Assembly (NCBI RefSeq): GCF_022601895.1
Contig: NZ_JAKVIO010000001.1
Span: 186,001 to 250,000, forward strand
Direction: 5' to 3'
From: Sphingomonas sp. LaA6.9
Lineage (GTDB): Bacteria > Pseudomonadota > Alphaproteobacteria > Sphingomonadales > Sphingomonadaceae
Length of the DNA: 64,000 bases
Below, piece by piece: positions 20,498 through 34,591 of the stretch. The notes under the pieces are model-generated. The model had not been told where the DNA came from, searched no databases, and saw only the letters and a program-made list of their open reading frames with translations. Position 1 is the first letter of the stretch; every line of letters starts with the position of its first letter. The translations under genes were made by a program, and so were the position numbers.

Positions 20498-22051
20498 TCA
20501 GAAACCTTGTGGTGACCAGATATCGGTACGCGCGTTCGCCCACTCGGCCCGCTCCCATTTGAGCAGGGTGGGGGCGGCGCTGACCAGCGCATTGCGATCG
20601 GCGGCCGCAAGCGCGCCGAGCAGCGCGCGTCCCGCGCGGGCGCGGATCAGGCTGCGATGCTCGGTGGCGAGCGCTTCGGGCGCGATGCCCCCGGCAGTGA
20701 AGGGAATGGCGTTGGCCGCCTTCGCCTCGAACCACGGCCAGAAGAAATGGCCTGCGCGGACCGCGCTCCATGCGGCGCCCAGATAGGCGCCATGGCGATC
20801 GGGCGTCTGGTCGGGAATGGCGTGTTCGGCCCAGTCTTCGGTGCGTTCGGCGGTTGGAATATGAGCGTCGATCGCGCCCCAGCCACGCGCGCCGACCTGC
20901 CGGGCGACGGCTGCGGCAAGCATCGCCGAGAAGCCCTCGCCGATAATGACGGGAGTCTTCGCCCTGCTGACCCCCGCGATCGCGGCCGCTGCAATCGTGC
21001 TCCAGCCGTCGAGATCGGGGGTGTAGCCATGCTGCCAGTCGTCCGACAGGCCATGGCCGGGCAGGTCGATCGCCAGCGCGTCGCTGGTGTCGAACAGCTC
21101 GGCGGCGCGGCCGGGAGCGTGAATCAGCACGGTCTCGGCATCGGGATTGCCCTGCCAGTGGATCAGCCCGTCAAAGCCTGCGCCCGCGACCCGGACAAAG
21201 CCGCCGTCCTCGCTTTCGGCGATCGGGTGAGGGGGGAGAGCAGGCGCGGCGCGCAGATGCGCAAGGCACGCGTCCTCGAGGTCGGCGGGCGTGGCGACGG
21301 CCTCGGCGCGCCAGCTCGGCGGCATCTCGCCCAGCCGCGCGATATGCGCCTGCAGCGGATCGCCATTATAGGCCGCGATCAGCACGGGGACCGTCTCGGC
21401 ATCGGTCGCGGGAATGTCGCGCGGCGCGCGGAGTACCGCACCATAGCCCGCGCGATAGGCGTCGCCGCTGTCGAGCATGTCGCGCACCACCGCGTCGGTC
21501 TTGATCGGATCGTCATGCGCAACGCTGATCCGCGCGCCATCGCGGACGTCGAACCAGGGGAAGAACCAGGTCTGCTCGATGATGCGGTTCCAGACCCATG
21601 TCAGGTGCTCGCCATAGGCGCTGGGCTGGAAGGGGGGCAGGTAATCCTTGTCGAAGATCGCCATTTCCTCAGGCGTCCAGACGGCATAGCCGCCCGTCGC
21701 GAGCGCGGTAAAGCGTTCGGGATGGCGCTTGACCGCGCCCACCAGGATGATTCCGCCCGAATGGAAGCCATATGCCGCGGTCTTCTCGATTCCGAGTGCG
21801 TCGAGCAGTTCGATCAAGGCGCCGCTGAAAGCGCCTATGTCGGGCGAACCCGGCAGCGGATCGGACTGGCCGAATCCCGGCGTGTCGGGGGCGATACAGG
21901 TGAAATGCTGCGCCCATTTTTCCATGAGCGGCTCATATTCGGCGGAGCTGCGCGGGCTCTGATGAACCATGAGCAGTGTCGGCCCCGATCCTGCCTTGCG
22001 GTAATGGACACGGCGGTTGCCGACGCGGATGAAGTGGCGGGTGATTGTCAT
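20498..22051 (-). CDS. tandem two-domain alpha/beta-hydrolase
   Basis: 517 residues, about twice the size of a normal alpha/beta-hydrolase. The first domain begins FIRVGNRRVHYRKAGSGPTL, has an oxyanion region LMVHQSPRSSAEY and nucleophile elbow YGFHSGGIILVG with the serine in place. The second, from about residue 285 (GFDGLIHWQGNPDAETVLIH), has IDLPGHGLSDDW, but its elbow reads VIIGEGFSAMLA, with glycine where the serine should be. Only the first half is likely catalytic. It is the first gene of the leftward catabolic operon and has a perfect palindromic operator 8 bases upstream of its ATG. Probable role: hydrolysis of an ester, amide or C-C bond early in the pathway (inference). Confidence 0.85.
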   Translation of the reverse strand: MTITRHFIRVGNRRVHYRKAGSGPTLLMVHQSPRSSAEYEPLMEKWAQHFTCIAPDTPGFGQSDPLPGSPDIGAFSGALIELLDALGIEKTAAYGFHSGGIILVGAVKRHPERFTALATGGYAVWTPEEMAIFDKDYLPPFQPSAYGEHLTWVWNRIIEQTWFFPWFDVRDGARISVAHDDPIKTDAVVRDMLDSGDAYRAGYGAVLRAPRDIPATDAETVPVLIAAYNGDPLQAHIARLGEMPPSWRAEAVATPADLEDACLAHLRAAPALPPHPIAESEDGGFVRVAGAGFDGLIHWQGNPDAETVLIHAPGRAAELFDTSDALAIDLPGHGLSDDWQHGYTPDLDGWSTIAAAAIAGVSRAKTPVIIGEGFSAMLAAAVARQVGARGWGAIDAHIPTAERTEDWAEHAIPDQTPDRHGAYLGAAWSAVRAGHFFWPWFEAKAANAIPFTAGGIAPEALATEHRSLIRARAGRALLGALAAADRNALVSAAPTLLKWERAEWANARTDIWSPQGF

Positions 22052-22058
22052 GCGCTCT

Positions 22059-22076
22059 AATTTGTCCGGACAAATT
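22059..22076. promoter_or_regulatory. 18-bp palindromic operator between divergent catabolic operons
   Basis: AATTTGTCCGGACAAATT is a perfect palindrome. It lies 8 bases upstream of the alpha/beta-hydrolase ATG and 62 bases upstream of the isochorismatase ATG, so one repressor or activator could control both. The core TGTCCGGACA recurs exactly at 28698 and 32577 and with one change at 28842. Half-site spacing (GT-N4-AC) is reminiscent of GntR-family operators; no GntR gene is in the window. Confidence 0.8.
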
Positions 22077-22137
22077 CCACTCGACAAGTCCTTTTCGCAA
22101 ACTATCGTGCGAATCACGATTTTGCAGGAGTTTTGTG

Positions 22138-22818
22138 ATGACGCTGATCGGTACCCGGATGGTCTGCGACGGCCGGACTGCGCGCCAGATTTTCGAGGAA
22201 GTGATGGCGAATCCGGCGCGCAACAAGTTCGGATTCGGCGAGAAGCTGGCGATCGTGAACGTCGATTTCCAGCAGGCCTATACGCGCACCGACATGTTCA
22301 AGACCGCCTACGAGACCGATCCCGCGCAGATCGCGTACACCAATACGATCTCGCGGCTGGCGCGCGAGAGGGGCATGCCGGTGGTCTGGAGTCGCGTCGG
22401 CTACAAGGATGATGCGGGTGATGCAGGCGTCTGGGGCACGCGCACCGACACACCCGATTCGCTGCAGAACATCAAATATGGCAGCGAGCGCCACGCATTC
22501 GACCCGCGCTGCGAGATCGACGCGAACGACCTGCAATACACCAAACGCATGCCCTCGGCCTTTTTCGAGACGCCGCTCGCGAGCTACCTGCGCTGGCACA
22601 AGGTCGACACCGTGGTGGTGACGGGGGGCAGCACCTCTGGCTGCGTGCGCGCGACCGCGGTCGATTCGCTGTCCTACGGCTTTCGCACCATCGTCCCCTT
22701 TGAGACCTGCGCGGACAAGCATGAGAGCTATCACTTCGCCAATCTGACCGACCTCCAGCTCAAATATGCCGATGTCGAGCCGGTTCAGGCGGTGATCGAC
22801 TGGCTGGAGGCCCGCTGA
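22138..22818 (+). CDS. isochorismatase-family amidohydrolase
   Basis: Cysteine hydrolase of 226 residues in the N-carbamoylsarcosine amidase/maleamate amidohydrolase group, which releases ammonia from amides. The Asp-Lys-Cys triad is visible: aspartate in IVNVDFQQAYT, lysine in YTKRMPSAFFETPL, cysteine in TGGSTSGCVRATAVDSLSYG. The ATG at 22138 follows GCAGGAG by seven bases. A second inverted repeat, ATCGTG-N5-CACGAT (22104-22120), lies just before the ribosome site. First gene of the rightward operon; its stop overlaps the next ATG. Together with the PuuE-like hydrolases it suggests stepwise opening and deamidation of a cyclic amide or imide (inference). Confidence 0.88.
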   Translation: MTLIGTRMVCDGRTARQIFEEVMANPARNKFGFGEKLAIVNVDFQQAYTRTDMFKTAYETDPAQIAYTNTISRLARERGMPVVWSRVGYKDDAGDAGVWGTRTDTPDSLQNIKYGSERHAFDPRCEIDANDLQYTKRMPSAFFETPLASYLRWHKVDTVVVTGGSTSGCVRATAVDSLSYGFRTIVPFETCADKHESYHFANLTDLQLKYADVEPVQAVIDWLEAR

Positions 22819-23720
22819 TGCGCGAAGGCGAAGCCGATCCCGGCCTCTACGATTTCGTTCCCTATCGCGGCCGCCCCAAGATCGCATGGCCGGGCGGCAA
22901 GAAGGTGGCGGTATGGGTCGCGCCCAATCTCGAATATTATGAGATCGATCCGCCCGCGAACCCGCTGCGCAAGAGCTGGGCGAAGCCCCACCCCGATGTC
23001 GTGGGCTTTTCGCATCGCGATCATTCGAACCGCGTGTCGCACTGGCGCATGGCCGAGGCGATGTCGAAATACGGTTTTCCGGGCTCGGTCTCGCTGTCGG
23101 TCGCGCTCTGCCAGCATCATCCCGAGGTCGTCCGCGACGCCAATGAGCGCGGCTGGGAGTTCTTCAGTCACGGCATCTACAACACGCGCTACAGCTACGG
23201 GATGGATGAGCGCCAAGAACGCGCGATCATCGAGGATTCGATCCGCACGGTACGCGAGGCGACGGGGCAGACGATCCGCGGCTGGCTCGCGCCCGCGCTG
23301 ACGCACACGCCGCGCACGCTCGACCTGATCGCCGAATATGGCCTCGACTATACCTGCGATCTTTATCACGACGACCAGCCCCAGCCGGTGAAGGTGCAAT
23401 CGGGCAGGCTGGTCTCGATCCCCTACAGCCTTGAGGTCAACGACCATTACGGCTTCTTCGTCTACAACATGAGCCCACGCGAATATGCCGATACGCTGAT
23501 CCGGCAGTATGAGCGGCTGGCGGAAGAGGGCGAGGAATCGGGCACCGTGATGTGCATCCCCTTGCACGCCTATCTGATCGGCCAGCCGCACCGCATCGGC
23601 CCCTTTGCCGAGGTGTTGCGCCACATCGCCGAAGACGGGCGCGCATGGATCGCGCGCGCGGGCGAGATCGCCGACCATTATTACGAACATCATTATGCGG
23701 AGGCCGCCCATGGCGCTTGA
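22818..23720 (+). CDS. PuuE-like polysaccharide-deacetylase-fold hydrolase 1
   Basis: 300 residues. The pattern WEFFSHGIYNTRYSYGM, then TIRGWLAPALTHTPRTLDLI and LDYTCDLYHDDQPQPVKVQ, is that of the PuuE/cyclic-amidase branch of the CE4 fold, not of chitin or peptidoglycan deacetylases. The metal-binding HxxxH of classical CE4 enzymes is replaced (SHGIYN); PuuE allantoinase has been described as metal-independent. No signal peptide, so cytoplasmic. Its ATG overlaps the isochorismatase stop, and its end overlaps the second paralogue by 11 bases. Likely hydrolyses a cyclic amide, imide or ureide; substrate unknown. Confidence 0.85.
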   Translation: MREGEADPGLYDFVPYRGRPKIAWPGGKKVAVWVAPNLEYYEIDPPANPLRKSWAKPHPDVVGFSHRDHSNRVSHWRMAEAMSKYGFPGSVSLSVALCQHHPEVVRDANERGWEFFSHGIYNTRYSYGMDERQERAIIEDSIRTVREATGQTIRGWLAPALTHTPRTLDLIAEYGLDYTCDLYHDDQPQPVKVQSGRLVSIPYSLEVNDHYGFFVYNMSPREYADTLIRQYERLAEEGEESGTVMCIPLHAYLIGQPHRIGPFAEVLRHIAEDGRAWIARAGEIADHYYEHHYAEAAHGA

Positions 23721-24624
23721 TCCCGCCTATCTCGAATATCCGAAGCGTCGCGAAGGCTATGACCATGATCTCTATCCATGGTCCTCGATCTTCGATCGCA
23801 AGCCCGTGCAATGGCCCGAGGGCAGATCGGTTGCGGTGTGGGTATGCGTCAGCCTCGAATGGTTCCCGATCACGCCGTCGGACACGCCCTTTCGCGCGCC
23901 GGGGCACATGCAGACCAGCTATCCCGATTATCGTCACTATACCGCGCGGGAATATGGCACGCGCGTGGGCTTCTATCGTCTGCTCGACGCGTTCAAAAAG
24001 GCGGGGGTGCGCGTTTCGGTCGCCACCAATGGCGCGATCGCCGATCGCTATCCGCAGATCATTGCGGACATCGTCGCCGACGGGCACGAGATCGTCGCGC
24101 ATTCGACCGACATGAACGGCACGATCGCGAGCGGCCTGCCGATCGAGGACGAGCGCGCGCTGATCGCGCAATCAATCGCTTCGCTGGAAAAGGCTTCGGG
24201 CAAGCGCCCGACGGGATGGCTCTCGATCGCGCGCTCGGAAAGCTGGAATACGCCCGATCTGCTGAAAGAGGCGGGGCTGAAATATGCCTGCGACTGGGCC
24301 AATGACGAACTGCCCTGGCGTTTCACCAACGGGCTCATCAACCTGCCGCTCAACCACGAATTGTCCGACCGGCAGATCGTCACGGTGCAGCAGCAATCGG
24401 CCGACAGCTATGCGCAGCAGATGATAGACGCCTTCGACTGGCTGGCGGAAGAAGCGAAGACCCATGGCGGCCGCGTGCTGCCGCTCCACATCACGCCCTA
24501 TATCATGGCGCTGCCCTATCGCATTTCGGCGTTCGAGGCGCTGCTCGAAAAGCTCGCCGCGCGGCCCGAGGCATGGTTCGCGACGGGTGAGGAAATCGTC
24601 GCGAGCTGGGAGGCTCAGCAATGA
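23710..24624 (+). CDS. PuuE-like polysaccharide-deacetylase-fold hydrolase 2
   Basis: 304 residues, paralogous to the preceding gene: both share a WPxGxxVAVWV start (WPEGRSVAVWVCVSLEWF) and a central GHEIVAHSTDMNG in place of the classical deacetylase metal motif, followed by RPTGWLSIARSESWNTPDLL. It is clearly diverged from copy 1, so the two may form a heteromer or act on successive intermediates. The ATG at 23710 lies inside the end of copy 1, implying translational coupling, and its stop overlaps the aldehyde dehydrogenase start by 4 bases. Confidence 0.83.
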   Translation: MALDPAYLEYPKRREGYDHDLYPWSSIFDRKPVQWPEGRSVAVWVCVSLEWFPITPSDTPFRAPGHMQTSYPDYRHYTAREYGTRVGFYRLLDAFKKAGVRVSVATNGAIADRYPQIIADIVADGHEIVAHSTDMNGTIASGLPIEDERALIAQSIASLEKASGKRPTGWLSIARSESWNTPDLLKEAGLKYACDWANDELPWRFTNGLINLPLNHELSDRQIVTVQQQSADSYAQQMIDAFDWLAEEAKTHGGRVLPLHITPYIMALPYRISAFEALLEKLAARPEAWFATGEEIVASWEAQQ

Positions 24625-26054
24625 GCCTTGCGGTCATCAATCCGCGTACGGGCGAGGCGGACTACGTCATCGAACCCGTCGACGGCGCGACAATCGCGGC
24701 GCTGACGAAGCAATTGCGCGCGGCGCAGCCCGGCTGGGCGGCACAGACCCCCGAGGGGCGCGGCGACGCATTGCGCAAGCTGGCCGACGCAATGGGGCGC
24801 CATCGCGACGCGCTGATCGCGGCGTTGACCGCCGATACAGGCCGTGCCGCTATCTCGGTGATCGAGGTCGACGCGATGACGCGGACCTTCATCCGCTGGG
24901 CGGACACCGCACCCGGCATCATCGCTGCCGCCACCGTGGCCGATCGGCAGACGGGCATTCCCACGATCACCACGACGACGCGGCTGGTGCCTTATCAGTT
25001 GATCGGCGCGATCAGCCCGTGGAACTTCCCGCTGACGCTGGCGCTGATCGATGCGATCCCCGCGCTCGCGGCGGGATCGGCTGTCATCATCAAGCCTTCC
25101 GAAATCACCCCGCGCTTCATCCGGCCGCTGATGGCGGCGATCGCGGAGGTGCCCGAGGTCGCGGCGGTGCTGACGCTGATCGAGGGCGATGGAGCGACGG
25201 GCGCGGCACTGGTCGATCATGTCGACTTCATCGCCTTCACCGGCTCGGTCGCGACCGGGCGCAAGGTGGGCGAGGCCGCGGCGCGCGCCTTCATCCCCGC
25301 GAGCCTCGAACTTGGCGGCAAGGATCCGATGCTGGTGCTCGCCAGCGCCGACCCGGTAAAGGCGGCGGAGACCGCGCTGCGCGCATCGGTGCTCAACACG
25401 GGGCAGGCGTGCCAGTCGATCGAGCGCGTCTATGTCGCGCGTGCCATCGCCGGGCCTTTCCTCGCAGCGCTCGTTGAGCAGGCACAGGCCGCGCGGCTCA
25501 ACTATCCCGATGTCCATCAGGGCGACATCGGCCCCTTCATCTTCGCGCGGCAGGCAGAGATCGTTCAATCGCAGATCGACGATGCCGTGGCGAAAGGGGC
25601 GCGGGTGCTTGCAGGCGGCCAGGTCGAGACGCTCGGCGGCGGCAAGTATCTGCGCCCGACGGTCCTGGTGAACGTCACCCCTGACATGGCGATCATGGAG
25701 GAGGAAACCTTCGGCCCGGTCATCCCCGTGACGGTCTTCGACACTGTCGATGAGGCGATTGCCCACGCGAACAGCGGCATTTTTGGCCTTTCGGCAGCGG
25801 TGCTCGCGGGCACCACGCAGGAAGCCGAAGCCGTCGCGGTGCGGCTGAATGCCGGTGGCGTCTCGATCAACGACGGATCGCTGACCGGGCTTGTCTGGGA
25901 AGCCGAGAAGTCGAGCTTCGGCAAGAGTGGGCTCGGCCCCTCGCGCATGGGCGAAAGCGGCCTGCTGCGCTTCTTCCGCCGGCAGGCGCTCATCCGCCAG
26001 TCGGGCAGTGCGTTGCCGCTCGCGGCCTATTCGGAGGAAGCGCTGGGTGGCTGA
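24621..26054 (+). CDS. NAD(P)-dependent aldehyde dehydrogenase
   Basis: 477 residues. ALDH landmarks: SPWNFPLTLALIDAIPALAA, IAFTGSVATGRKVGEAAA, the general-base glutamate in SLELGGKDPMLV and catalytic cysteine in NTGQACQSIERVYV, plus EEETFGPVIPV. It oxidises an aldehyde or semialdehyde to the acid; the true substrate is unknown. Its operon position after the ring-opening hydrolases suggests oxidation of a semialdehyde released in the same pathway. Distinct from the AstD-like gene at 45522. Confidence 0.9.
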   Translation: MSLAVINPRTGEADYVIEPVDGATIAALTKQLRAAQPGWAAQTPEGRGDALRKLADAMGRHRDALIAALTADTGRAAISVIEVDAMTRTFIRWADTAPGIIAAATVADRQTGIPTITTTTRLVPYQLIGAISPWNFPLTLALIDAIPALAAGSAVIIKPSEITPRFIRPLMAAIAEVPEVAAVLTLIEGDGATGAALVDHVDFIAFTGSVATGRKVGEAAARAFIPASLELGGKDPMLVLASADPVKAAETALRASVLNTGQACQSIERVYVARAIAGPFLAALVEQAQAARLNYPDVHQGDIGPFIFARQAEIVQSQIDDAVAKGARVLAGGQVETLGGGKYLRPTVLVNVTPDMAIMEEETFGPVIPVTVFDTVDEAIAHANSGIFGLSAAVLAGTTQEAEAVAVRLNAGGVSINDGSLTGLVWEAEKSSFGKSGLGPSRMGESGLLRFFRRQALIRQSGSALPLAAYSEEALGG

Positions 26055-26502
26055 CCTTGCGAGGTCCATGCCCACCATGCTGCGCCATGCCGGATGGTGG
26101 GAAGGCGAATATCGCGTCATCGAGCGCGACGGCACGCTCAGCGATTTCCACCACATGCGCACCTTTTGTGAATTCCCCGCAGAGGGGCCGCACGCCTATC
26201 TCCAGCACAACTGGTTGAGATGGCAGGACGGCCGCACGCTCGAACGCGTGTTCGGCGCCAGCTTTCGCGACGGTCGGCTATGGTGGGATACCGAGCGGCT
26301 CCAGGGTTATGGCTGGGAGACGGAAGGCGGCATCGTCATGCTGAATCTCGTCCACAAGACTGAAGCCGATCTGCGCTTCACCGAAATGATCGAATTGTCC
26401 GGTAACGGACAGAAGCGCGCGCGAACATGGCAATGGTTCCGGAACGGCGAGCCCGTTCGGCGAACGCTTTGCGACGAGTGGCGCGTCGGAAATGCGCTGT
26501 AA
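26047..26502 (+). CDS. small conserved beta-rich protein, copy 2 of 3 (DUF3598/calycin-like)
   Basis: 151 residues from a GTG at 26047 that overlaps the aldehyde dehydrogenase stop by 8 bases; ATGs at 26068 and 26077 are possible but cut into a stretch (MPTMLRHAGWWEGEYRV) aligned with the N-terminus of copy 1. Shared motifs are GWWEGEY, FCEFPAEGP, NWLRWQDGRTLERVF, RFTEMIELSGNGQKRARTWQ and RRTLCDEWRV. It is shorter at the C-terminus than the other two copies. Last gene of the rightward operon. Function unknown. Confidence 0.75.
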   Translation: MADLARSMPTMLRHAGWWEGEYRVIERDGTLSDFHHMRTFCEFPAEGPHAYLQHNWLRWQDGRTLERVFGASFRDGRLWWDTERLQGYGWETEGGIVMLNLVHKTEADLRFTEMIELSGNGQKRARTWQWFRNGEPVRRTLCDEWRVGNAL

Positions 26503-26594
26503 AAATGCCAACATTTGGTGAGAAGCGCTGATAGCGCGCAAGATCTCCCGTGCATTTCTGCCGGGTTTCGCCAAAAATCCCGGCTTTACGGGAT

Positions 26595-26609
26595 TGGCAC
26601 GATTGCTGC
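26595..26609 (+). promoter_or_regulatory. sigma-54-like promoter upstream of pspC-like gene
   Basis: TGGCACG-N4-CTGC matches the -24/-12 consensus TGGCACG-N4-TTGC with one mismatch and correct 10-base spacing between GG (26596-26597) and GC (26608-26609). It lies 55 bases before the ATG. The leader contains inverted repeats GTAGGGC/GCCCTAC and GCGGTCCG-GA-CGGACCGC. The rest of the 161-bp gap holds no gene. Confidence 0.6.
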
Positions 26610-26663
26610 GTAGGGCAGATCATCGCGGTCCGGACGGACCGCCCGCCCTACGGAGTAACAGTG

Positions 26664-26990
26664 ATGCAAGCCGCAAAATCTTCCGCTGCCAAGGTCGCCA
26701 AAGAGGACAATCTGTTCGGTGTCTGCGCCGCGCTTGGCGAGGATTTCGGCTTCAATCCGCTGTGGCTGCGGATCGCATTGTCGGTCGGAATTCTCTGGAA
26801 TCCGATGGCGATGATCGGCGGCTACGCGGTCCTCGGCGTGATCGTCGGGCTTTCGCGTCTGCTGGTGCCCAATGTTCGTCGCGACAAGTCTGCGGAGCAG
26901 GAGGAAGGCGGCGCGGTTGCCAGCCTGCCCACGCGCAGCGCGCAGACGGTTGAGGGCAACCAGGCACCGGAAATGGCCTGCGCGGCCTGA
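26664..26990 (+). CDS. PspC-domain envelope stress protein
   Basis: 108-residue inner-membrane protein. A PspC domain covers about residues 14-70: NLFGVCAALGEDFGFNPLWL, then the hydrophobic ALSVGILWNPMAMIGGYAVL. The C-terminal third is polar and low in complexity. Phage-shock-type proteins respond to inner-membrane stress; PspC normally partners PspB or PspA, which are not seen here. A CGGAG ribosome site precedes the ATG, and a sigma-54-like promoter lies upstream. It sits alone between two catabolic operons, ended by a strong hairpin terminator. Confidence 0.85.
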   Translation: MQAAKSSAAKVAKEDNLFGVCAALGEDFGFNPLWLRIALSVGILWNPMAMIGGYAVLGVIVGLSRLLVPNVRRDKSAEQEEGGAVASLPTRSAQTVEGNQAPEMACAA

Positions 26991-27017
26991 CGCCACGCTT
27001 CATATTCCATGTCGAAA

Positions 27018-27058
27018 GGGCGATGTCGGCAGATCGGATGCCGACATCGCCTTTTTCT
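27018..27058 (+). terminator. rho-independent terminator after pspC-like gene
   Basis: 13-bp perfect stem GGCGATGTCGGCA/TGCCGACATCGCC with a 7-base loop followed by TTTTT. Four bases beyond is the stop of the convergent quinone oxidoreductase; a short A-run on the other side makes it possibly bidirectional. Confidence 0.85.
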
Positions 27059-27060
27059 GT

Positions 27061-28035
27061 TCAGGGCAGCAGAACCGTCGATCCGGTCGTCTTGCGACCC
27101 TCAAGGTCGACATGCGCCTGCGCCACGTCCTCGAGCGCATAGCGCTGGCCAATGGTGATCCTGACCTTGTCCGAGCGCAGCATCTCCCAGAGCCGCTCGA
27201 CACCTGCGGCACGCTCGGCGGGCTCGGCATAATAATGATAGAGCATCGGCCGCGAGTTATAGAGCGAGCCCTTCATCGCGAGCACGCCCAGATTGACGCC
27301 GCCCACGGGCGCATCGGCATTGCCATAGTTCACGATCAGGCCGCGGATGCCGCAACTGTCTAGCGAGGATTCCCAGGTCGACATGCCCACCCCGTCGAAC
27401 ACGACGCGCACGCCCTTGCCGCCCGTCAGTTCGCGGACGCGCTTCGCGGTGTCCTCGCTCTGGTAGAAGACGATATGGTCGGCGCCCGCCGCGCGCGCCT
27501 CGGCGGCCTTTTCCTCGGTGCTCACGGTGCCGATCACCGTCGCGCCCACCGCCTTCAGCCACTGGACGAGGATCAGGCCGACGCCGCCCGCCGCCGCATG
27601 GACGAGCACGGGCCAGCCCGCTTCCACCTTCGCGCAGCGTTCGACGAGGAACTCGACGGTGCAGCCCTTGAGCAGCACCGCCGCTGCGGTCTCATCGTCG
27701 ATATCGTCGGGTATGTGGAAGAGTGAGGCCGCGGCGATATTGCGCTCGCTTGCATAGGCGCCGCGCTCGGGGCCGAAATAGCCGACGCGCTGGCCGGGCG
27801 TGAAGCCGGTCACGCCTTCGCCCACCGCTTCGACCACGCCAACGCCCTCGACGCCGAGTTCGGCGGGCAACTCGACGGGATAAATGCCGCGGCGATGATA
27901 GGTGTCGATGAAGTTCAGGCCCAGCACGGTGTGCCGGACGCGTACCTCGCCCGCACCGGGAGCGGGGAGATTGGCATCATGAAACCGTATGACCTCGGGT
28001 CCGCCGGTGGCCTCTATTCTTGCTACGCGTGCCAT
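27061..28035 (-). CDS. zinc-free quinone oxidoreductase-like MDR protein
   Basis: 324 residues, NADPH-dependent medium-chain reductase of the quinone oxidoreductase (QOR) type. Landmarks are GLNFIDTYHRRGIYPVELPA, the QOR signature, then HAAAGGVGLILVQWLKAVGA (nucleotide-binding loop) and GKGVRVVFDGVG. Structural zinc cysteines are absent. Probably reduces a quinone or an activated alkene; in this operon it follows YCII and DUF1330 genes, small ferredoxin-fold proteins often found with degradative oxygenases. ATG at 28035 follows GGAGGG. Physiological substrate unknown. Confidence 0.88.
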   Translation of the reverse strand: MARVARIEATGGPEVIRFHDANLPAPGAGEVRVRHTVLGLNFIDTYHRRGIYPVELPAELGVEGVGVVEAVGEGVTGFTPGQRVGYFGPERGAYASERNIAAASLFHIPDDIDDETAAAVLLKGCTVEFLVERCAKVEAGWPVLVHAAAGGVGLILVQWLKAVGATVIGTVSTEEKAAEARAAGADHIVFYQSEDTAKRVRELTGGKGVRVVFDGVGMSTWESSLDSCGIRGLIVNYGNADAPVGGVNLGVLAMKGSLYNSRPMLYHYYAEPAERAAGVERLWEMLRSDKVRITIGQRYALEDVAQAHVDLEGRKTTGSTVLLP

Positions 28036-28045
28036 CTCGCCCTCC

Positions 28046-28351
28046 TTACCAGGTCTTGCCGCCGACCCAGTCGCCGGCAGCAGCATTGAACGCGCGGATC
28101 TCGATATCGGACCAGATATCCGCCTTGTAATAGGGATCTGCCTCGAGCAGCGCGCGCGCTTCTGCTTCGCTTTCGGCCTTCACCACGAGCAGCGAGCCGG
28201 TGAAATTGCCGTCCTCGTCACGCAGCGGGCCCGCGACCGCGAGCCGGTCGAGCCCCGCTTCGACATGCGCGAGATGCTCCTTCAGCTTCTCCATGCGCGT
28301 GGCCGTCGCGCCGGGTTTGTCCTTCGTGATGATCGCGTAGAATTTGGACAT
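28046..28351 (-). CDS. YCII-related protein
   Basis: 101 residues, ferredoxin-like dimeric alpha/beta-barrel of the YCII family. It starts MSKFYAIITKDKPGATATRM, has an HLAHVEAGLD segment with the family histidine, then GSLLVVKAESEAEARALLEA and DPYYKADIWSDIEIRAF. YCII proteins are small putative isomerases or dehalogenases of aromatic and other catabolic pathways; no substrate can be assigned. It is flanked closely by the DUF1330 and quinone oxidoreductase genes (23 and 10 bases), a probable three-gene operon. Confidence 0.82.
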   Translation of the reverse strand: MSKFYAIITKDKPGATATRMEKLKEHLAHVEAGLDRLAVAGPLRDEDGNFTGSLLVVKAESEAEARALLEADPYYKADIWSDIEIRAFNAAAGDWVGGKTW

Positions 28352-28374
28352 CTGGATTCCTTTCGTGAATTTGT

Positions 28375-28680
28375 TCAGCCGGCGATCGCGGGCCCTTCGA
28401 TGAGCAGCACCTGGCAATCGGCGATGCCCTGGCGCAGCGCCTTCGCTTCGCCATATTCAGGGGAATTCCAGAAGGCGAGCGCGGCTTCCTTGCTTGGCCA
28501 TTCGGAGATCACCACCGATCCGCCGTCGCCGAAGCGGCCCTCGAGCAGCTGACAGCCCGGCGCGCGCATCAGATATTTTCCGCCGAACTTTTCGACGAGT
28601 GCGGCCGCACGCGATCCGTAGCCCGCAAGGAAGGATTCACGGTCGGAAATCGTGGCGGTGACGATCAAGTAGGCGGGCAT
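28375..28680 (-). CDS. DUF1330 protein
   Basis: 101 residues, another ferredoxin-like dimeric alpha/beta-barrel protein. DUF1330 landmarks are MPAYLIVTATISDRESFLAG, GGKYLMRAPGCQLLEGRFG and VISEWPSKEAALAFWNSPEY. Function of the family is unknown. First gene of a three-gene leftward operon; an operator copy TGTCCGGACA lies 18 bases upstream of its ATG, tying it to the catabolic regulon. Confidence 0.88.
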   Translation of the reverse strand: MPAYLIVTATISDRESFLAGYGSRAAALVEKFGGKYLMRAPGCQLLEGRFGDGGSVVISEWPSKEAALAFWNSPEYGEAKALRQGIADCQVLLIEGPAIAG

Positions 28681-28697
28681 GCGGAGACTCCGTTAAA

Positions 28698-28707
28698 TGT
28701 CCGGACA
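28698..28707. promoter_or_regulatory. operator copy TGTCCGGACA upstream of DUF1330 operon
   Basis: Exact copy of the core palindrome found at 22063-22072, here in the context AATGTCCGGACAAC, 18 bases upstream of the DUF1330 ATG. Confidence 0.7.
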
Positions 28708-28841
28708 ACATAGTTTGTGTCTCCATTGCTGCAATCAAAAATGGGCAGGCGTCACAGAATCCTGAAAGCCCAACAACCCTACGGAATGTGGGTGTTGCAA
28801 TTATATGACAGAGATCGGATTTGTCGCCATATGCGCTCAAA

Positions 28842-28851
28842 TGTCTGGACA
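28842..28851. promoter_or_regulatory. operator copy TGTCTGGACA upstream of TonB receptor
   Basis: One-base variant of the core palindrome, within CAAATGTCTGGACAACTTTG, 54 bases upstream of the receptor ATG. The remaining intergenic DNA between 28681 and 28905 holds no gene. Confidence 0.65.
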
Positions 28852-28905
28852 ACTTTGAGGGGCAATGAAAGCTTCCAGGCGTCATTCAATGGGGAGGAAT
28901 AAGCT

Positions 28906-31455
28906 ATGCGATTCGTGATCCGGGCAACCTTGCTCGCGGCAACGGCTTTGGTGCCTGCGTCGGTACTGGCGCAGGAAGCACCCGCCGAAGTGCAGGGCGG
29001 TATCGAAGACATCATTGTGACCGCGAGGAAAACCGAAGAGTCGCTCTCGGACGCACCAGTGGCAGTCTCCGCCGTCTCTGAAAAGATGATCGAACAGCTC
29101 GGTCTGAACTCGATCGACGATTTTGCCAAGCAAGCGACGGGCATCAGCTTCAGCCAGGCATTTGGAAGAACTTCGGACCGGCCCGTTATTCGCGGTCAGT
29201 CCAACGTCCTCGCCAATGTGCAGTTCGGGGTGGAAACGGGCGCGGCCTATTTTGTAGACGGTATCTACTATCAAGGTGACATCCAGGGTTTCGACCCCAA
29301 CTCGATCCAGCGCGTCGAGATCATCAAGGGCCCGCAGTCGGCGCTTTATGGCCGCAACACCTATTCCGGCGCGATCAACTATGTGACCAAGGATCCGTCG
29401 GACACGCTGACCGTTTCTGGCAAGGCAAGCGTTGCCGAGCACGACACCTATGATCTGAGCGCCTCGATATCAGCGCCGATCATGGGTGATGTGGTCGGTA
29501 TTTCTGCCGGCGGGCGCTATTACGAATATGGCGGCGAGTATCGCAACCAGCTTACCGGCAACAAGGTAGGCCAGGAAAAGAGCTATTCGGGCTATGTGAC
29601 GCTGGTCGCGAAACCCAATGACGACATCAAGATCCGCCTGCGTGGCCAATATCAGCACGACCGGGACGGATCGCTGCCGATCTTCCTGCAGGGCGCCGAT
29701 GCCAACAACTGTATGCCCGGTTTTCGCAGCCTGCGTTATCGCCAGCGCAACCTTCCACCGCCCGTGCCGGTTTCACCGACTTCGACGTTCCAACCGGCCA
29801 TCGGCATTTCCAATAACGCCAACCAGTATTTCTGCGGCACGATCGAGCCTCAGCCGAACAACATTCGCGTCAACAACGATCCCGTCTCAACCTTTTTTGG
29901 CGTACGCGACGCCACGGCGTTCGATGGCAATCGCAACGATCAGTATCTGGCGTCGGGCATTGTCGATTGGGACATTGGGGGTTCCGGGTGGATCGTATCC
30001 AGCCTTACCGGCTATCGGAACAATACCAATCTGTTTGGCGACGATGGCGACCACACCGACAGCTTCTTCTTCCTGTTCCCGCCCGTGCCGCCTGCGACCG
30101 TCGAGCCGGCATTTGCGAACACCAATCGCGATGAAACGGAGGATTTCAGTCAGGAAATTCGTCTTGCCAGCCCCGCGGACCAACCCATTCGCGGCTTGCT
30201 GGGCGGCTATTATTTCAAGCAGACAAACCGCAACCAGGATCTGACCTTCGCCAATCCAACCGCCGGCGAAGCATTGGGCACCAACGCTTCGGCATATGGA
30301 AGCATAGAAGATGTTGCAGTGTTCGGATTGCTCAGCGCCGAATTGACCGATGAGATCACGGTCACTGGCGAGATCCGCTATGCCGAGGAACGCAAGACGA
30401 TCATCGAACGCGCCGCTGCGACGTCAATCTTCTGCGCGGGCGAAGCTGGCCGCGCGGGCCAGTTCGGATTTACCGGCACGTGCTTGCCCGCGGGCAAGTT
30501 CAAGGATTGGACACCCCGCGTCACCATCGACTGGAAGCCGACCGACGACCTGCTCGTCTATGCCGTCTATGCAGAAGGCAACAAGCCGGGTGGGTTCAAC
30601 GGCGCGGGCGGCCTTTCGGCATCGACGCTGACGGGCACCGATCAGACCGCCTATCTGCCGGAAACCGTGAAGGGCGGCGAACTTGGCGTGAAGTTCGATA
30701 CGGCCGATCGCATCGCACGCTTCTCCGCAGCGATTTTCTATAACAAACTGGCTGACGTTCAGCTCACACGGGCCATCCCGCCAACAGTCGCCGGCCAGTC
30801 TTCCACGTCCATCGTGACCAATCAGGGCGACGCGGAAACCAAAGGCTTCGAGCTCGAAATGCAGGCGGCGCCAACGAACGGACTGAACGTCTCGCTGGGC
30901 GTCGCCTATGTCGATGCCAAGTTCACCAACGGCTGCGATGCCGATCTCTTTACGCTCAATTCGGGCGGGTTCCGGCCGAATTTCGACACCGACAATCCGC
31001 CGGCCAACATGTTGCCGCTGTGCGATATCACGGGCAAACGCATGCCGCTGGGTTCACCCTGGATTGTCAACGGTTCGATGAGCTACGAGCGAGAGGTCGG
31101 CGCAAACGGACTGAGCCTGTTTGCGAACACCAGCTTCAGCTATGAGGATGCGAAATACATCCAGGTCGACAATCTCGCTAAGACCGGAGACGCCTTCCTG
31201 CTCAACGCGCGGCTCGGTGTCCGTACCGAGCACTGGAGCCTCACATTGTTCGGCCGCAATCTGACGGACGAGGATGCGATACCGCTCGCTACCCGCTGGT
31301 TCGACTATCGCTATGGCAACGCCCGCCGCGACGTCGGAACGACGGGTACCTTCCAGGGGCAGGCCTTCGCGGTCGAAACGGGCGCGCCGCGCGCGTTCTT
31401 CGCGACGCTGCGCCGGGGGCGCACCTTCGGGATCGAGGGCACTTTCAAGTTCTGA
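28906..31455 (+). CDS. TonB-dependent outer-membrane receptor
   Basis: 849 residues. Signal peptide about residues 1-23 (LLAATALVPASVLAQE), a TonB-box-like region IEDIIVTARKTEES at about 33-46, a plug domain (VIRGQSNVLANVQFGVETGA, PQSALYGRNTYSGAINYVTK) and a 22-strand barrel ending in an aromatic-phenylalanine motif (GIEGTFKF). It probably imports the island's growth substrate or a related molecule; the ligand is not readable. Monocistronic: operator 54 bases upstream, GGGGAGGA ribosome site, strong terminator downstream. Base composition is somewhat less GC-biased than flanking genes. Confidence 0.93.
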   Translation: MRFVIRATLLAATALVPASVLAQEAPAEVQGGIEDIIVTARKTEESLSDAPVAVSAVSEKMIEQLGLNSIDDFAKQATGISFSQAFGRTSDRPVIRGQSNVLANVQFGVETGAAYFVDGIYYQGDIQGFDPNSIQRVEIIKGPQSALYGRNTYSGAINYVTKDPSDTLTVSGKASVAEHDTYDLSASISAPIMGDVVGISAGGRYYEYGGEYRNQLTGNKVGQEKSYSGYVTLVAKPNDDIKIRLRGQYQHDRDGSLPIFLQGADANNCMPGFRSLRYRQRNLPPPVPVSPTSTFQPAIGISNNANQYFCGTIEPQPNNIRVNNDPVSTFFGVRDATAFDGNRNDQYLASGIVDWDIGGSGWIVSSLTGYRNNTNLFGDDGDHTDSFFFLFPPVPPATVEPAFANTNRDETEDFSQEIRLASPADQPIRGLLGGYYFKQTNRNQDLTFANPTAGEALGTNASAYGSIEDVAVFGLLSAELTDEITVTGEIRYAEERKTIIERAAATSIFCAGEAGRAGQFGFTGTCLPAGKFKDWTPRVTIDWKPTDDLLVYAVYAEGNKPGGFNGAGGLSASTLTGTDQTAYLPETVKGGELGVKFDTADRIARFSAAIFYNKLADVQLTRAIPPTVAGQSSTSIVTNQGDAETKGFELEMQAAPTNGLNVSLGVAYVDAKFTNGCDADLFTLNSGGFRPNFDTDNPPANMLPLCDITGKRMPLGSPWIVNGSMSYEREVGANGLSLFANTSFSYEDAKYIQVDNLAKTGDAFLLNARLGVRTEHWSLTLFGRNLTDEDAIPLATRWFDYRYGNARRDVGTTGTFQGQAFAVETGAPRAFFATLRRGRTFGIEGTFKF

Positions 31456-31472
31456 CGCGCTGTCTTTCAAAC

Positions 31473-31515
31473 AAAAAAGGCCCCGCCGGAGTGTATCCGG
31501 CGGGGCTTCTTTTTT
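31473..31515. terminator. bidirectional terminator after TonB receptor
   Basis: 11-bp stem GCCCCGCCGGA/TCCGGCGGGGC with a 5-base loop, T-run after it and A-run before it. It separates the receptor from the convergent DUF1838 gene; the rest of the 152-bp gap shows no gene. Confidence 0.9.
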
Positions 31516-31607
31516 AGTGCGCTCTCAACTCGAGCGGGGGTGCCGCCGCCTTGCGGTGGTCCGTGATCAGCTAAACGCAATCGGGACCGTCGCGGCGGCG
31601 CGTCATG

Positions 31608-32516
31608 TCAATGGCCCTGTCTCGGCGCTTCCGGCGCGGCCTTGCGCTTTTCGTCGACCCATTTCTTGAAGACCGTCCAGGTCGTCTCATTGGGGCGCGC
31701 ATCGTCGACAGGGGGTGCCTGGGTGTAGATCGGGTAGTTTGCCGCGATCTCGTCCTTCAGCACCTTGGGCAGTTCGTCATAGCTCTTGAGCTTGGTACCC
31801 ATGGCGTTGAACACGATCTGTCCCTGGCGACCGCGCATCTTCATCCACGGCATCCAGTCCGAGATGCGGACCCATGACACCGAGGGGTAGGCCGTCGGGT
31901 TTTTCGTATCGAGCAGTTCGTCGGTGCGCGCGACGAAATCGAATATTTCCATCGCGTGATATTTGTTGCCGACAAAGTCCTGATAATCGCCGGCAAGCAC
32001 GTTGTGATAGAAAAGCGGCACCTCCAGCGGCATCGCGAACCACTGGCCCATGCGCTTGTGGCTGAGCTGAAAGGGTTTGCCGTCGGCGCCATAGGGAAAG
32101 CTCGGGCGCGCGTTAACGGGATCGTTGGCAATCTGCATCACCTCGACCTTCTCATCGGTCCAGGGGTTGGTCCATGTGCGCAGGATCTCGCCCGTCTTCG
32201 GGTCGGTGAACACCATGACCTCGCGGCTGACCTGGCGATAGCCGGTGCCGCGCTTCTCGTCAGCGACAGAGACGCACTGACGAACGTTCATGCCCTCACC
32301 GTGGAACAGCAGTCGGTCGGGCTCGCCGGTGATGCGCGAATAGACCTTTCCCGACCAATAATAGACCGCGGGCGTCCCGTCCTTCACACCGCACTGGGTG
32401 CGCTTCATGATCTCTATCGCGTCTTCGGGCTTGGCCGGATCCAGCGTCCTCGCATTCGCGGGCATCGCCGCCAGCGTCCCCAACGCCGCGCAACCCAGCA
32501 ACACGTATTTCATCAT
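31608..32516 (-). CDS. exported DUF1838 protein
   Basis: 302 residues with a signal peptide (MMKYVLLGCAALGTLAAMPANA). The mature part carries DUF1838 features: TQCGVKDGTPAVYYWSGKVY, TGEILRTWTNPWTDEKVEV and PSVSWVRISDWMPWMKMRGR. DUF1838 proteins are periplasmic or surface proteins of unknown function. An operator copy lies 60 bases upstream of the ATG, with its own probable promoter, making it a separate member of the regulon although it follows the cytochrome c gene on the same strand. Confidence 0.85.
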   Translation of the reverse strand: MMKYVLLGCAALGTLAAMPANARTLDPAKPEDAIEIMKRTQCGVKDGTPAVYYWSGKVYSRITGEPDRLLFHGEGMNVRQCVSVADEKRGTGYRQVSREVMVFTDPKTGEILRTWTNPWTDEKVEVMQIANDPVNARPSFPYGADGKPFQLSHKRMGQWFAMPLEVPLFYHNVLAGDYQDFVGNKYHAMEIFDFVARTDELLDTKNPTAYPSVSWVRISDWMPWMKMRGRQGQIVFNAMGTKLKSYDELPKVLKDEIAANYPIYTQAPPVDDARPNETTWTVFKKWVDEKRKAAPEAPRQGH

Positions 32517-32576
32517 GTCTTTCCTCCCCTTGTTTGGACGCGGAGATGCTAGCGCAGCTTTTCGAGAATGAAAATA

Positions 32577-32586
32577 TGTCCGGACA
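32577..32586. promoter_or_regulatory. operator copy TGTCCGGACA upstream of DUF1838 gene
   Basis: Exact core palindrome within AAAATATGTCCGGACAAATT, located between the DUF1838 start and the end of the cytochrome c gene. Confidence 0.7.
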
Positions 32587-32626
32587 AATTTGGAATATGC
32601 CCGAGGACATTGTTGATTGCTGAGCC

Positions 32627-33001
32627 CTATTTGGCGCTTTCCGCCTCGATATAGGCGATGATCGCCTTGCGCCTGGCGGCGTCGGCTTCTCCGGCAAACC
32701 CCATGCGGTTGCCCGGCACGATCTTGTTCGGCGCGGCGATAAAGGCGTCGAGCGTCTCAGCGGTCCATGTCACGCCGCTGCCCTTCATCGCGTTCGAATA
32801 GGTGAAGCCAGCTTGCGTTCCCGCGGTCTTGCCAAGGATGTCGTGGAGATTGGGTCCGGAGCGCTTTGCGCCATCCTTGTCGAAACTGTGGCAGGTGGCG
32901 CAGCGCGCGACCTCGTCGCCGGGGCCCGCGGCCTTGTCTCCGCCGCAACCCGCAAGCGTCAGCGCTGCCAGCGCAAGAATGGAAAGTCCGATGCTTCTCA
33001 T
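32627..33001 (-). CDS. class I cytochrome c, probable lipoprotein
   Basis: 124 residues. A lipobox-like LAGCGG ends the signal sequence; heme-binding CATCH is at about residues 34-38, and the axial methionine is probably in NRMGFAGE. The fold resembles cytochrome c2/c552 (GPNLHDILGKTAGTQAGFTY). Lies 21 bases after the flavoprotein gene in the same operon and is the obvious electron acceptor for it, passing electrons to the respiratory chain from the periplasmic face. Lipid anchoring is inference from the lipobox. Confidence 0.88.
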   Translation of the reverse strand: MRSIGLSILALAALTLAGCGGDKAAGPGDEVARCATCHSFDKDGAKRSGPNLHDILGKTAGTQAGFTYSNAMKGSGVTWTAETLDAFIAAPNKIVPGNRMGFAGEADAARRKAIIAYIEAESAK

Positions 33002-33022
33002 GATGATTGTTCCCTGGAAAAT

Positions 33023-34591
33023 TCAGGCGAAGCCGAGCACGCCGGGGTTCATCAATCCCCGGGGGTCGAGCGCCTGCTTGATGGTTGCGAGCAGCGCCTC
33101 GGGCGCGGGCGACAGCGCGGGACGAAAGGGGTAGGTGCGTCCGATCTGGTTGGAGGCGGCGCCAAGGCTGCGGAAGAGTTCGACGGTTTCGTGCCGTAGC
33201 CGGTCGACCAGCGCGCGCGCCTCCGGATTGGGAGCGGGCTCGACGAAACCCGCGAGATGCCGGGTGTCGGGCGCTTCTCGATGCAGCGGTTGCCAACTGT
33301 CCTGCCAGTGAAAAACGGGCTCGAAACTGAAGCAGTGATTGGCGAGCGCGGAGGCGAGCCGCGTGAAGGTGATCCCGTGCGCGGCCATTTCCTCGGCATG
33401 CGGCGCGATCATCGCGTCGAAGGCCGCGATGAGCCGGCGTGCCTCCGAATGCGCGACCTTCGCGTTGAGCGCGGCCCAGCGACCGCCTGTGGGGCCGAGT
33501 ACGCCGTTCAGATTGGCGAAGAGTTCGGCGCGCGCGACGCGCGGAATCGTGGGCGCGACCGCAATCCCGCCCCAGCGCGCGGCGATGCGATGCGCTTCTT
33601 CCAGATCGGCCTCGACCGCAGCGGCGCAGCGGCCCGCAGCGGTCAGGTGCAGCGAGAAATGCCCTTCGGGGATGAAGCCGGTGCCGCCTTTGGCCAGCGA
33701 GGCGAGCGCCTTCACCGCCTTGAGCGCGCCGCCCGCATCGCGCGCCACCGACATCGCGGTCTTCGCCATCGTCGCGCTATCGGCGTGCACCGCGCCTGCG
33801 GCGCTCGGGTCGAGGATATAGACTTCCTCCGCCAGATCGGCGCGCGCGATCTCGCACAGCGCGTCGGCCGCTTCCTCGATACCTGCGAAGGCGAAGCTGG
33901 CATAGCCCTGCTCGGCGGGCGAACGGATCAGGCGGAAGCTCGCTTCGGTCTTGATCCCGAACATGCCGCCGTCATGCGTGAACAGGCCGGTGAGATCGGG
34001 CCCGAATGTGCGCAGTATCGGTTTGCTGCCAAGCATCAGCGCGCCCTGTCCGGTGCGCAGCAAGGTGCCATCGGCGAGCGCGACTTCGATCCCCAGCACA
34101 TTCTCCGCCGCCGAGCCATAACGCGCCGATCCGAAGAACAGCGCGCCATGCCCAAGCCCGCCGCCCACCGTCGCGCCAGCGCCCGAGAAGGTGCCGATAA
34201 AGGGCAGGCGCAGCCCGCGCGGTTTCAGCGCGTCGTTGATCTGCTTCCACGTCACGCCCGCCTGCATGGTGATCGTCATATCCTCCTCGGCGATGTCGAG
34301 GATGCGGTCGAGTCCGCGCATGTCGATCGTGACGGCCTTGGCGGAAGGGGGCGCGTAGCCCCCGGTATAGCTGAGCCCGCCGCCGCGCGGCAGCACCGCA
34401 TAGCCAAGCGCGGTGGCGGTCGAGAGCGCCGCAGCGACGCCCGCCGCGTCGCGCGGAAGCACGACGGCAGCGGGGCGATCGCCCGTCACATGCACATCGC
34501 TCGCGGCGAGATCCAGCGCGGCGTCATCGGTGCGCACGGCATCGTTGCCGAGCACACCAGCGAGCGCTTCGAGCAGCGCGGCGTGGCTCAT
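33023..34591 (-). CDS. VAO/PCMH-superfamily FAD-linked oxidase
   Basis: 522 residues. FAD-binding PCMH domain near the N-terminus (LPRDAAGVAAALSTATALGY, VLPRGGGLSYTGGYAPPSA, GTFSGAGATVGGGLGHGALF) and a C-terminal cap ending ALDPRGLMNPGVLGF, typical of p-cresol methylhydroxylase, vanillyl-alcohol oxidase and lactate/glycolate dehydrogenase relatives. The neighbouring cytochrome c suggests a dehydrogenase that uses cytochrome rather than oxygen. No signal peptide is apparent, so how it meets the exported cytochrome is unclear. ATG at 34591 overlaps the upstream gene by 4 bases; an open frame continues upstream but belongs to the antisense/alternate frame of the membrane protein gene. Confidence 0.85.
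   Translation of the reverse strand: MSHAALLEALAGVLGNDAVRTDDAALDLAASDVHVTGDRPAAVVLPRDAAGVAAALSTATALGYAVLPRGGGLSYTGGYAPPSAKAVTIDMRGLDRILDIAEEDMTITMQAGVTWKQINDALKPRGLRLPFIGTFSGAGATVGGGLGHGALFFGSARYGSAAENVLGIEVALADGTLLRTGQGALMLGSKPILRTFGPDLTGLFTHDGGMFGIKTEASFRLIRSPAEQGYASFAFAGIEEAADALCEIARADLAEEVYILDPSAAGAVHADSATMAKTAMSVARDAGGALKAVKALASLAKGGTGFIPEGHFSLHLTAAGRCAAAVEADLEEAHRIAARWGGIAVAPTIPRVARAELFANLNGVLGPTGGRWAALNAKVAHSEARRLIAAFDAMIAPHAEEMAAHGITFTRLASALANHCFSFEPVFHWQDSWQPLHREAPDTRHLAGFVEPAPNPEARALVDRLRHETVELFRSLGAASNQIGRTYPFRPALSPAPEALLATIKQALDPRGLMNPGVLGFA

Follow-up and report, generated by a model that had tools for sequence, protein, structure and literature searches.

Palindromic operators of a sphingomonad catabolic island and their very probable regulator, a GntR/UTRA protein encoded on another contig

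Introduction

In a 64-kb stretch of the Sphingomonas sp. LaA6.9 genome, one palindrome recurs upstream of five transcription units, which raises the question of what protein reads it and what that protein controls. The stretch, hereafter the window, corresponds in its entirety to C37:186001-250000 of a genome of 95 contigs and 4.39 Mb. The five units are two divergent operons, an operon that begins with a DUF1330 gene, a gene encoding a TonB-dependent receptor and a DUF1838 gene; we call the region that holds them the island. An earlier note on this DNA had described the palindrome and proposed a dedicated regulator. Here, we describe a HutC-type GntR/UTRA gene that this genome carries on contig C23 and present evidence that the AATTTGTCCGGACAAATT palindromes are very probably the operators of its product.

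Results

The core TGTCCGGACA occurred exactly at positions 22063, 28698 and 32577 of the window, and a copy with one change, TGTCTGGACA, occurred at 28842. No further match with at most one change was found across the 64 kb. The 18-bp perfect palindrome AATTTGTCCGGACAAATT (22059..22076) lies between the two divergent operons. Copies of ATGTCCGGACAA lie 16 bp upstream of the DUF1330 gene (28697..28708) and 59 bp upstream of the DUF1838 gene (32576..32587), and the variant ATGTCTGGACAA lies 53 bp upstream of the TonB receptor gene (28841..28852). All four are intergenic, and the distance to the start of the putatively controlled gene is 10-64 bp. Extension of the core by one base on each side yields the 12-mer TTGTCCGGACAA, which is present exactly at 22062 and from which the copies at 28697 and 32576 differ by one mismatch each and that at 28841 by two. 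The earlier note had given the four coordinates, the 18-bp palindrome and the placement near gene starts correctly. Copies do occur outside the island, where the note had seen none, and those on C23 point to the regulator.

Ten exact copies of the 10-mer lie outside the window. Five of these (one each on C1, C51 and C89 and two on C83) lack AT flanks and look like background, although the gene finder placed four of the five between genes. The 10-mer was rejected as the operator unit on account of these five flank-less copies. By contrast, the 12-mer is the discriminating unit: five exact copies were found in the 4.39 Mb, against ~0.15-0.18 expected. One is in the window, two are near the end of C23, and C43 and C59 carry one each. 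When two mismatches were allowed, the 12-mer gave 96 matches and a reversed control 125, so only near-exact sites are meaningful. In the genome-wide scan that the note had suggested, the motif stood out as a 12-mer; as a 10-mer it looks partly like background.

The C43 copy (C43:37607-37618; 7608 in locus L015) lies 36 bp before a gene of the Asp/Glu/hydantoin-racemase family, possibly a lineage-specific extra member of the regulon. No counterpart of this gene was found in ten relatives at E 1e-30, in a search run without a positive control. At C59:7820-7853 (L016), a 34-bp perfect palindrome is centred on the 12-mer, between a succinyl-CoA-synthetase-like and an ETF-beta-like gene (named from sequence appearance). 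This copy was left out of the regulon, as neither of the two off-cluster exact sites listed for relatives, both in S. cavernae and described below, matches it by neighbours. A further copy of the motif on C59, at 139026, is located 40 bp before a sigma-54 activator gene.

To define the length of the operator, we used sites with at most one mismatch to the 12-mer, a selection in which the flanking columns played no part. Removal of four repeats from 77 such sites, nine of which fall within predicted frames, left 73 distinct sites. Outside the 12-mer, A was kept at −8 in 92% of these, T at −7 in 73% and A at −9 in 73%. These conserved columns extend the operator to the 18-bp AATTTGTCCGGACAAATT: the repeated palindrome of the note is real, and its unit would be 18 bp rather than the 10-bp core. 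A centrally changed variant accounts for 11 of the 73 sites. The same change (TTGTCCAGACAA or its complement) precedes the TonB-receptor genes of the clusters in L062/L099, L096, L103, L105, L107, L109, L111, L112, L142 and L143, and the one-change copy at 28842 is therefore probably not a product of decay. For the copy at 28698, no counterpart was seen in relatives at precisely the same place.

The candidate regulator gene is located at C23:84177-84935. According to Pfam, its product has an N-terminal winged-helix GntR domain (PF00392, 63.9 bits; cut-off 27) and a C-terminal UTRA domain (PF07702, 69.5 bits; cut-off 23.8). It had no FCD match; the FCD matches of this genome are on C93, C32 and, below the cut-off, C83. 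The HutC model TIGR02018 was the best NCBIfam match at 93.2 bits, short of its curated cut-off of 220. The earlier note had taken the GT-N4-AC pattern as a hint of a GntR operator, which is borne out by this gene. Its remark that no GntR gene is present is correct for the window and incorrect for the genome, and the regulator gene beside an outside copy of the motif that it had proposed to look for exists in the C23 cluster. A dedicated regulator common to the five units, as the note had suggested, is strongly supported by this gene together with the conservation and co-occurrence data below.

The regulator gene lies in the middle of a catabolic cluster at the end of C23 (L014, C23:76000-90804). 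The lyases and hydratases of this cluster comprise a CitE-like protein (RipC/Ccl-like), a MaoC-type protein (RipB/Ich-like) and an enoyl-CoA hydratase. It further encodes an acyl-CoA dehydrogenase, two family III CoA-transferases, two MmgE/PrpD proteins, a PaaK-like ligase, an amidase, a short-chain dehydrogenase/reductase and a PuuE-like protein; the RipB, RipC, PaaK and PuuE models all score below their cut-offs. The cluster contains two exact 12-mers and one site with a single mismatch. One exact operator lies 60 bp before the CitE-like gene. The other lies between two divergent genes, a TonB-receptor-like gene and a membrane protein gene, 57 bp ahead of each; TTGTCCGTACAA lies 111 bp before the regulator gene. 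The TonB-receptor-like gene runs off the contig and was assigned from its start and its full-length counterparts in relatives.

To evaluate the co-occurrence of regulator and operator, we surveyed 199 genomes of the family, calling the regulator at E ≤ 1e-40. The regulator was found in 22 genomes, all of which contain the 12-mer and 21 of which contain at least two copies. Among the 177 regulator-less genomes, exactly one 12-mer was found in 14 and two or more in none (Fisher p 1.8e-27 for at least two copies). As operator and pathway might simply travel together, the same genomes were searched for the PuuE-like enzyme encoded at 22818, which was found in 34. Each of the 21 that also encode the regulator contains two or more 12-mers, counted over the entire genome. 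Of the 13 without it, 12 have no 12-mer and one has a single copy (p 2.4e-8 for at least one copy). Eleven of the 13 regulator-less loci were viewed gene by gene, and ten keep at least six of seven module genes (those for the CoA-transferase, HMG-CoA-lyase-like, LeuC-like, LeuD-like, isochorismatase-fold and two PuuE-like proteins). The presence of the operator thus tracks that of the regulator rather than that of the pathway.

The module is portable, recurring without this GntR protein in L160-L167, L169 and L170, in some cases with other regulators nearby. These include an IclR protein in L162, other GntR/UTRA proteins in L162 and L166, and a GntR-like protein in L169 (detected by BLAST only). 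It is possible that the regulator was replaced around a conserved pathway in these genomes.

A search of relatives' contigs for the regulator yielded 17 loci, 12 of them close (69-96% identity) and five distant (26-45%). The close loci are all from sphingomonads: S. cavernae (two), Sphingobium estronivorans, S. chungbukense, S. jiangsuense and seven metagenome-assembled genomes. At 11 of these there are two or more exact 12-mers, and at the twelfth, L062, four sites with one mismatch; no site with fewer than two mismatches was found at the five distant loci. In eight of ten genomes, G006 and G008 not included, 29 exact sites were recorded. Of these, 26 are no further than ~21 kb from the regulator; for a single site in G007 and another in G010, this judgement was made from distance only. 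Of the remaining three, one is at the 22059-type promoter of G005, on another contig, and two are elsewhere in S. cavernae.

In S. cavernae (both G001 and G178, with identical coordinates), the regulator cluster and the majority of the island genes are united in a block of ~45 kb (L096, L059 and L097). The block begins with genes for a CN-hydrolase, an FAD-oxidase and a cytochrome c, two sites, and genes for a TonB receptor, DUF1330 and YCII proteins and an alcohol dehydrogenase. The C23-type genes with the regulator follow, and then a second TonB/oxidase set. The last part contains the genes for an aldehyde dehydrogenase, two PuuE-like proteins and an isochorismatase-fold protein, an operator, and the alpha/beta hydrolase and LeuCD-like genes. 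S. cavernae has two regulator paralogues (L059 and L062), which share 97% and 86% identity with the C23 protein and each have operators nearby. The closest relative of the window's TonB receptor (87%) and a DUF1330 protein (71%) are encoded on another contig, near the 86% paralogue, and a DUF1838 relative (89%) lies ~27 kb from that paralogue (L062, L098 and L099). An operator with one mismatch occurs 0.7 kb before the DUF1838 relative, with a predicted gene between.

In the source genome, the regulator and the island are on different contigs, the island being at least ~36 kb from either end of its own. This separation is not merely an effect of assembly, because the regulator and the 22818-type module are ~550 kb apart on the single contig of G117, a genome of the same genus, in which the exact 18-bp operator is kept. 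They are ~415 kb apart in G082, where the operator is also kept.

Operators were also conserved promoter by promoter, the denominators here including loci without a site. Of 18 loci with the 22818-type gene in regulator-positive genomes, 16 have an exact 12-mer in the 1500 bp upstream of that gene; the module is rearranged in the exceptions, L174 and L175. By contrast, neither an exact nor a one-mismatch site precedes the module in any of 13 loci of regulator-less genomes. The CitE-like gene has an exact 12-mer within 200 bp upstream in all 19 loci where the gene was found. The DUF1838 gene has an exact or one-mismatch site in the 250 bp before it in 11 of 13 loci, the window included (none in L098 or L103), that of L111 falling within the preceding predicted gene. 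For the DUF1330 gene, a one-mismatch site lies within 300 bp upstream in five of 11 loci, two of which are the same place in S. cavernae; the low fraction reflects that elsewhere the TonB gene bearing the sites comes first. Conservation at orthologous promoters establishes that the motif is real.

We then compared the predicted DNA contacts with those of NagR, in which Arg38 reads G−5 and Arg48 reads G−4, as described in the cited part of PMC4333415. A phmmer alignment placed Ser44 and Arg54 of the C23 regulator opposite Arg38 and Arg48, respectively. The operator reads T at −5 and G at −4, the latter in 73 of 73 sites, a count partly forced by site selection. In 28 distinct orthologues, from regulator-positive genomes other than G070, G022, G048, G123 and G183, residue 44 is Ser (23), Thr (2), Ala (2) or Asn (1), residue 54 is always Arg, and residue 55 is Phe (Tyr once). 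By analogy with NagR, the loss of the G−5 arginine would match the loss of G−5 from the operator, and Arg54 would contact the retained G.

The putative targets in the window are the following genes. The left operon, on the minus strand, begins with an alpha/beta hydrolase gene (20498..22051; PF00561) whose start is 10 bp from the operator. It continues with genes for an uncharacterized 166-residue protein (19984..20484; gene prediction), a LeuC-like hydratase large subunit (18609..20030; PF00330; NF009116, 662.7 bits against a cut-off of 531), a LeuD-like small subunit (17995..18810; PF00694; NF002458 above cut-off), whose real start is probably inside this frame, an HMG-CoA-lyase-like enzyme (17069..17998; PF00682; NF004283, 264 bits against 246) and a family III CoA-transferase (15930..17072; PF02515, 372.8 bits; best NCBIfam match succinate-glutarate CoA-transferase, below cut-off). 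The right operon, on the plus strand, begins with the gene for an isochorismatase-fold amidohydrolase (22138..22818; PF00857), a candidate half-amidase whose nearest solved structures include N-carbamoylsarcosine amidohydrolase. The next gene encodes a PuuE-like, putatively ring-opening amidohydrolase of the polysaccharide-deacetylase fold (22818..23720; PF01522; TIGR03212, 119 bits, below cut-off) that matched the PuuE structure 3cl6 with an E of 2.4e-25. It is followed by genes for a second PuuE-like amidohydrolase (23710..24624; PF01522 in a longer frame; TIGR03212, 99.5 bits, below cut-off) and an aldehyde dehydrogenase resembling succinic semialdehyde dehydrogenase (24621..26054; PF00171; NF006916, 363 bits, below the cut-off of 521).

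The DUF1330 operon, on the minus strand, encodes the DUF1330 protein (28375..28680; PF07045), a YCII-domain protein (28046..28351; PF03795) and a zinc-type alcohol dehydrogenase family protein (27061..28035; PF00107). The TonB-dependent receptor gene (28906..31455; PF00593 and PF07715) is on the plus strand and the DUF1838 gene (31608..32516; PF08894, 239.6 bits) on the minus strand; the DUF1838 protein had no relative among solved structures at E 0.001. Adjoining minus-strand genes that travel with the island (32627..37117) encode a cytochrome c (PF00034), an FAD-linked oxidase (PF01565), a DUF3108-like protein (PF11306, below cut-off) and a CN-hydrolase (PF00795). The same neighbours occur in S. 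cavernae L096, and no operator belonging to any of these four genes was seen in the window. The small proteins encoded at 19984-20484 and 26068-26502, the latter without a Pfam match, are related, and relatives' clusters repeat the family; they appear to be an uncharacterized family tied to the pathway.

Discussion

The operators, the regulator gene, their conservation and co-occurrence and the matching contact residues are visible in the sequences. The pairing of the operators with the C23 protein suggests the following mechanism, in which physical binding, repression and an inducer are inferred. A regulator dimer would bind each palindrome, with one winged-helix domain per half-site, and thereby repress the five transcription units of the window. 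The CitE-like operon, the second TonB receptor and the divergent membrane protein of C23 would also be repressed, as perhaps would the regulator's own promoter. Binding of a pathway metabolite to the UTRA domain would lift repression. Of 16 CitE promoters measured, 15 have a TTGAC box 6-8 nt ahead of the operator, and the sixteenth, L146, has the same box before a nearer site; this operator would lie between the −35 and −10 elements. In 15 of the 17 second TonB promoters examined (not L062 or L143), the operator follows TTGACA at a distance of exactly 21 nt. Placement of an operator in the spacer or across the −10 is in keeping with repression by occlusion. If the pairing is correct, repression is the likely direction of control.

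Several observations weigh against this pairing or against parts of it. Exact copies at C43 and C59 sit outside the clusters of the source genome, as do two in S. cavernae, beside flagellin-like and phosphomannomutase-like genes (named from sequence appearance). G142 has the regulator (55%) and a single 12-mer more than 1 Mb away, its cluster being broken. G040 and G048 have the regulator (45% and 48%) and no site before the 22818-type gene, their module being rearranged. The sites of the relatives share ancestry and hence are not independent. The regulator's own promoter has an exact or one-mismatch site in only five of 12 orthologue loci, a two-mismatch site in five and none in L066 and L070; autoregulation is therefore uncertain. 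Consensus scans of three window promoter regions gave one, one and zero promoter-like matches, and for the 22138 operon they placed the −35 downstream of the operator; as these scans are weak, the direction of control is provisional. Finally, G082 holds 36 exact copies of TTGTCCGGACAA across its genome, one per ~95 kb on average. Ten of these (L130-L139, on C1 and C2) had no common longer flank, and in nine a frame is open over the full 400 bp; G150, the sole other genome of that genus examined, has zero copies. The G082 copies might be the binding site of some chromosome-wide protein.

The simplest alternative is chance recurrence of a palindromic 10-mer in a GC-rich genome. Its basis is the raw counts: the exact 10-mer is not island-specific, with 13 found genome-wide and ~5 expected from base composition, and at one mismatch the four window sites compare with 1.53 expected, a count of at least four being reached by 10 of 100 shuffles. 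Conservation at orthologous promoters, the excess of the 12-mer and its co-occurrence with the regulator refute chance for the window sites as a set and leave it scarcely any probability, even if a single copy such as that at 28697 could be incidental. It is also quite improbable that the sites are the operators of another regulator of this genome, be it one of the other three UTRA proteins, an FCD-type GntR protein or a member of a different family. Candidates are available: the genome has 14 GntR-domain matches (11 over cut-off) and four UTRA matches, and the UTRA protein on C11 likewise lacks the Arg38 equivalent (Ala) while keeping the second Arg. Unassigned genes of the relatives' clusters were searched for families in part, and another regulator gene may be among them. 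Nevertheless, it is the C23 orthologue that predicts the operator over 199 genomes (21/21 against 1/13 among holders of the pathway enzyme) and that recurs inside the operator-bearing clusters of relatives. For a FadR-subfamily protein, the spacing between GT and AC is mostly 3 nt and sometimes 2 in the cited part of PMC4494728, and here it is 4.

A variant of the proposed pairing holds that the C23 protein binds the same sites and stimulates transcription. The predicted −35 downstream of the operator at the 22138 operon would favour this. We consider it unlikely in view of the TTGAC box that is conserved immediately ahead of the CitE operator and of the precedent of NagR, which blocks transcription when bound to DNA and is relieved by effectors, according to the cited part of PMC4333415. 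Repression by the C23 GntR/UTRA protein thus remains the favoured model.

The regulon would serve scattered genes for the uptake and breakdown of a compound that is probably nitrogen-containing. The enzyme content suggests three reactions, namely opening of an imide-like ring, a deamidation and the degradation of a substituted maleate. The assignment of individual steps is provisional, and no NCBIfam match of the amidohydrolases reaches its cut-off. The C23 cluster adds a further PuuE-like enzyme together with a hydratase and a lyase of the itaconate type (RipB-like and RipC-like, respectively). In the regulator-less locus L162, the module is near a protein whose nearest solved structure is maleate isomerase, and methylisocitrate-lyase-like proteins (below cut-off) are near the module in L161 and L162. 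Alkylmaleimides arise from the breakdown of tetrapyrroles such as chlorophyll, haem and bilins. We raise, as a speculation that is more apt to be wrong than right, an undescribed sphingomonad pathway in which a bulky compound would enter via the TonB receptors and its imide-like rings would be mineralized. The PuuE-like enzymes would open the ring, the isochorismatase-fold amidase remove nitrogen, the LeuCD-like enzyme hydrate the substituted maleate, and the CoA-transferase and lyases cleave the product; alkylmaleimides from tetrapyrroles would fit, and the regulator would sense a product. A title search, with most subscription journals outside its scope, found no published description of the regulated pathway or module. 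Among the literature matches listed for TGTCCGGACA, none had a bacterial regulator in its title and several concerned p53-family proteins.

For a case built on sequence alone, the support for the regulon is unusually strong, and what was an orphan motif becomes a set of regulator, operator and regulon that is open to testing. In the source genome, it joins two TonB receptors and three uncharacterized or poorly characterized domains (DUF1838, DUF1330 and YCII) to one catabolic programme. It also provides an example of a regulator parted from its targets without loss of the operators, and offers a natural test of the GntR contact code in which the G−5 arginine and G−5 were lost together. Identification of the inducer of the C23 regulator would be a shortcut to the substrate of the pathway.

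In kind, the regulon is ordinary: it is a new regulon of a known, HutC-type regulator family. With FadR and other FCD-type proteins, the C23 regulator shares the DNA-binding domain family and, by prediction, the Arg-G contact; it differs in having no FCD domain and in an operator spacing of 4 nt rather than mostly 3, to judge from the cited part of PMC4494728. It resembles HutC in that TIGR02018 is its best NCBIfam match, yet at less than half the curated cut-off, and no histidine-utilization family was found among the window and C23 genes searched. In the same part of PMC4494728, the GT and AC of HutC-subfamily sites are mostly separated by 4 nt, with the consensus GTMTAKAC, and the residue following the recognition-helix Arg correlates with the central operator bases; the C23 operator has a central CG, with Phe55, instead of the common TA. 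The closest parallels are NagR (YvoA) and DasR, which likewise combine a GntR winged helix-turn-helix with a UTRA domain: the nearest solved structures were 2wv0 and 4u0v, with DasR (4zs8) further down. Like the dre-sites of NagR/DasR, the C23 operator is a GT-N4-AC palindrome, and the equivalent of Arg48 is kept as Arg54. Unlike these systems, the C23 protein has Ser44 in place of Arg38 and its operator T at −5, the similarity is low (64 bits), and the sites are carried by TonB-receptor and acyl-CoA/amidohydrolase genes, not amino-sugar genes.

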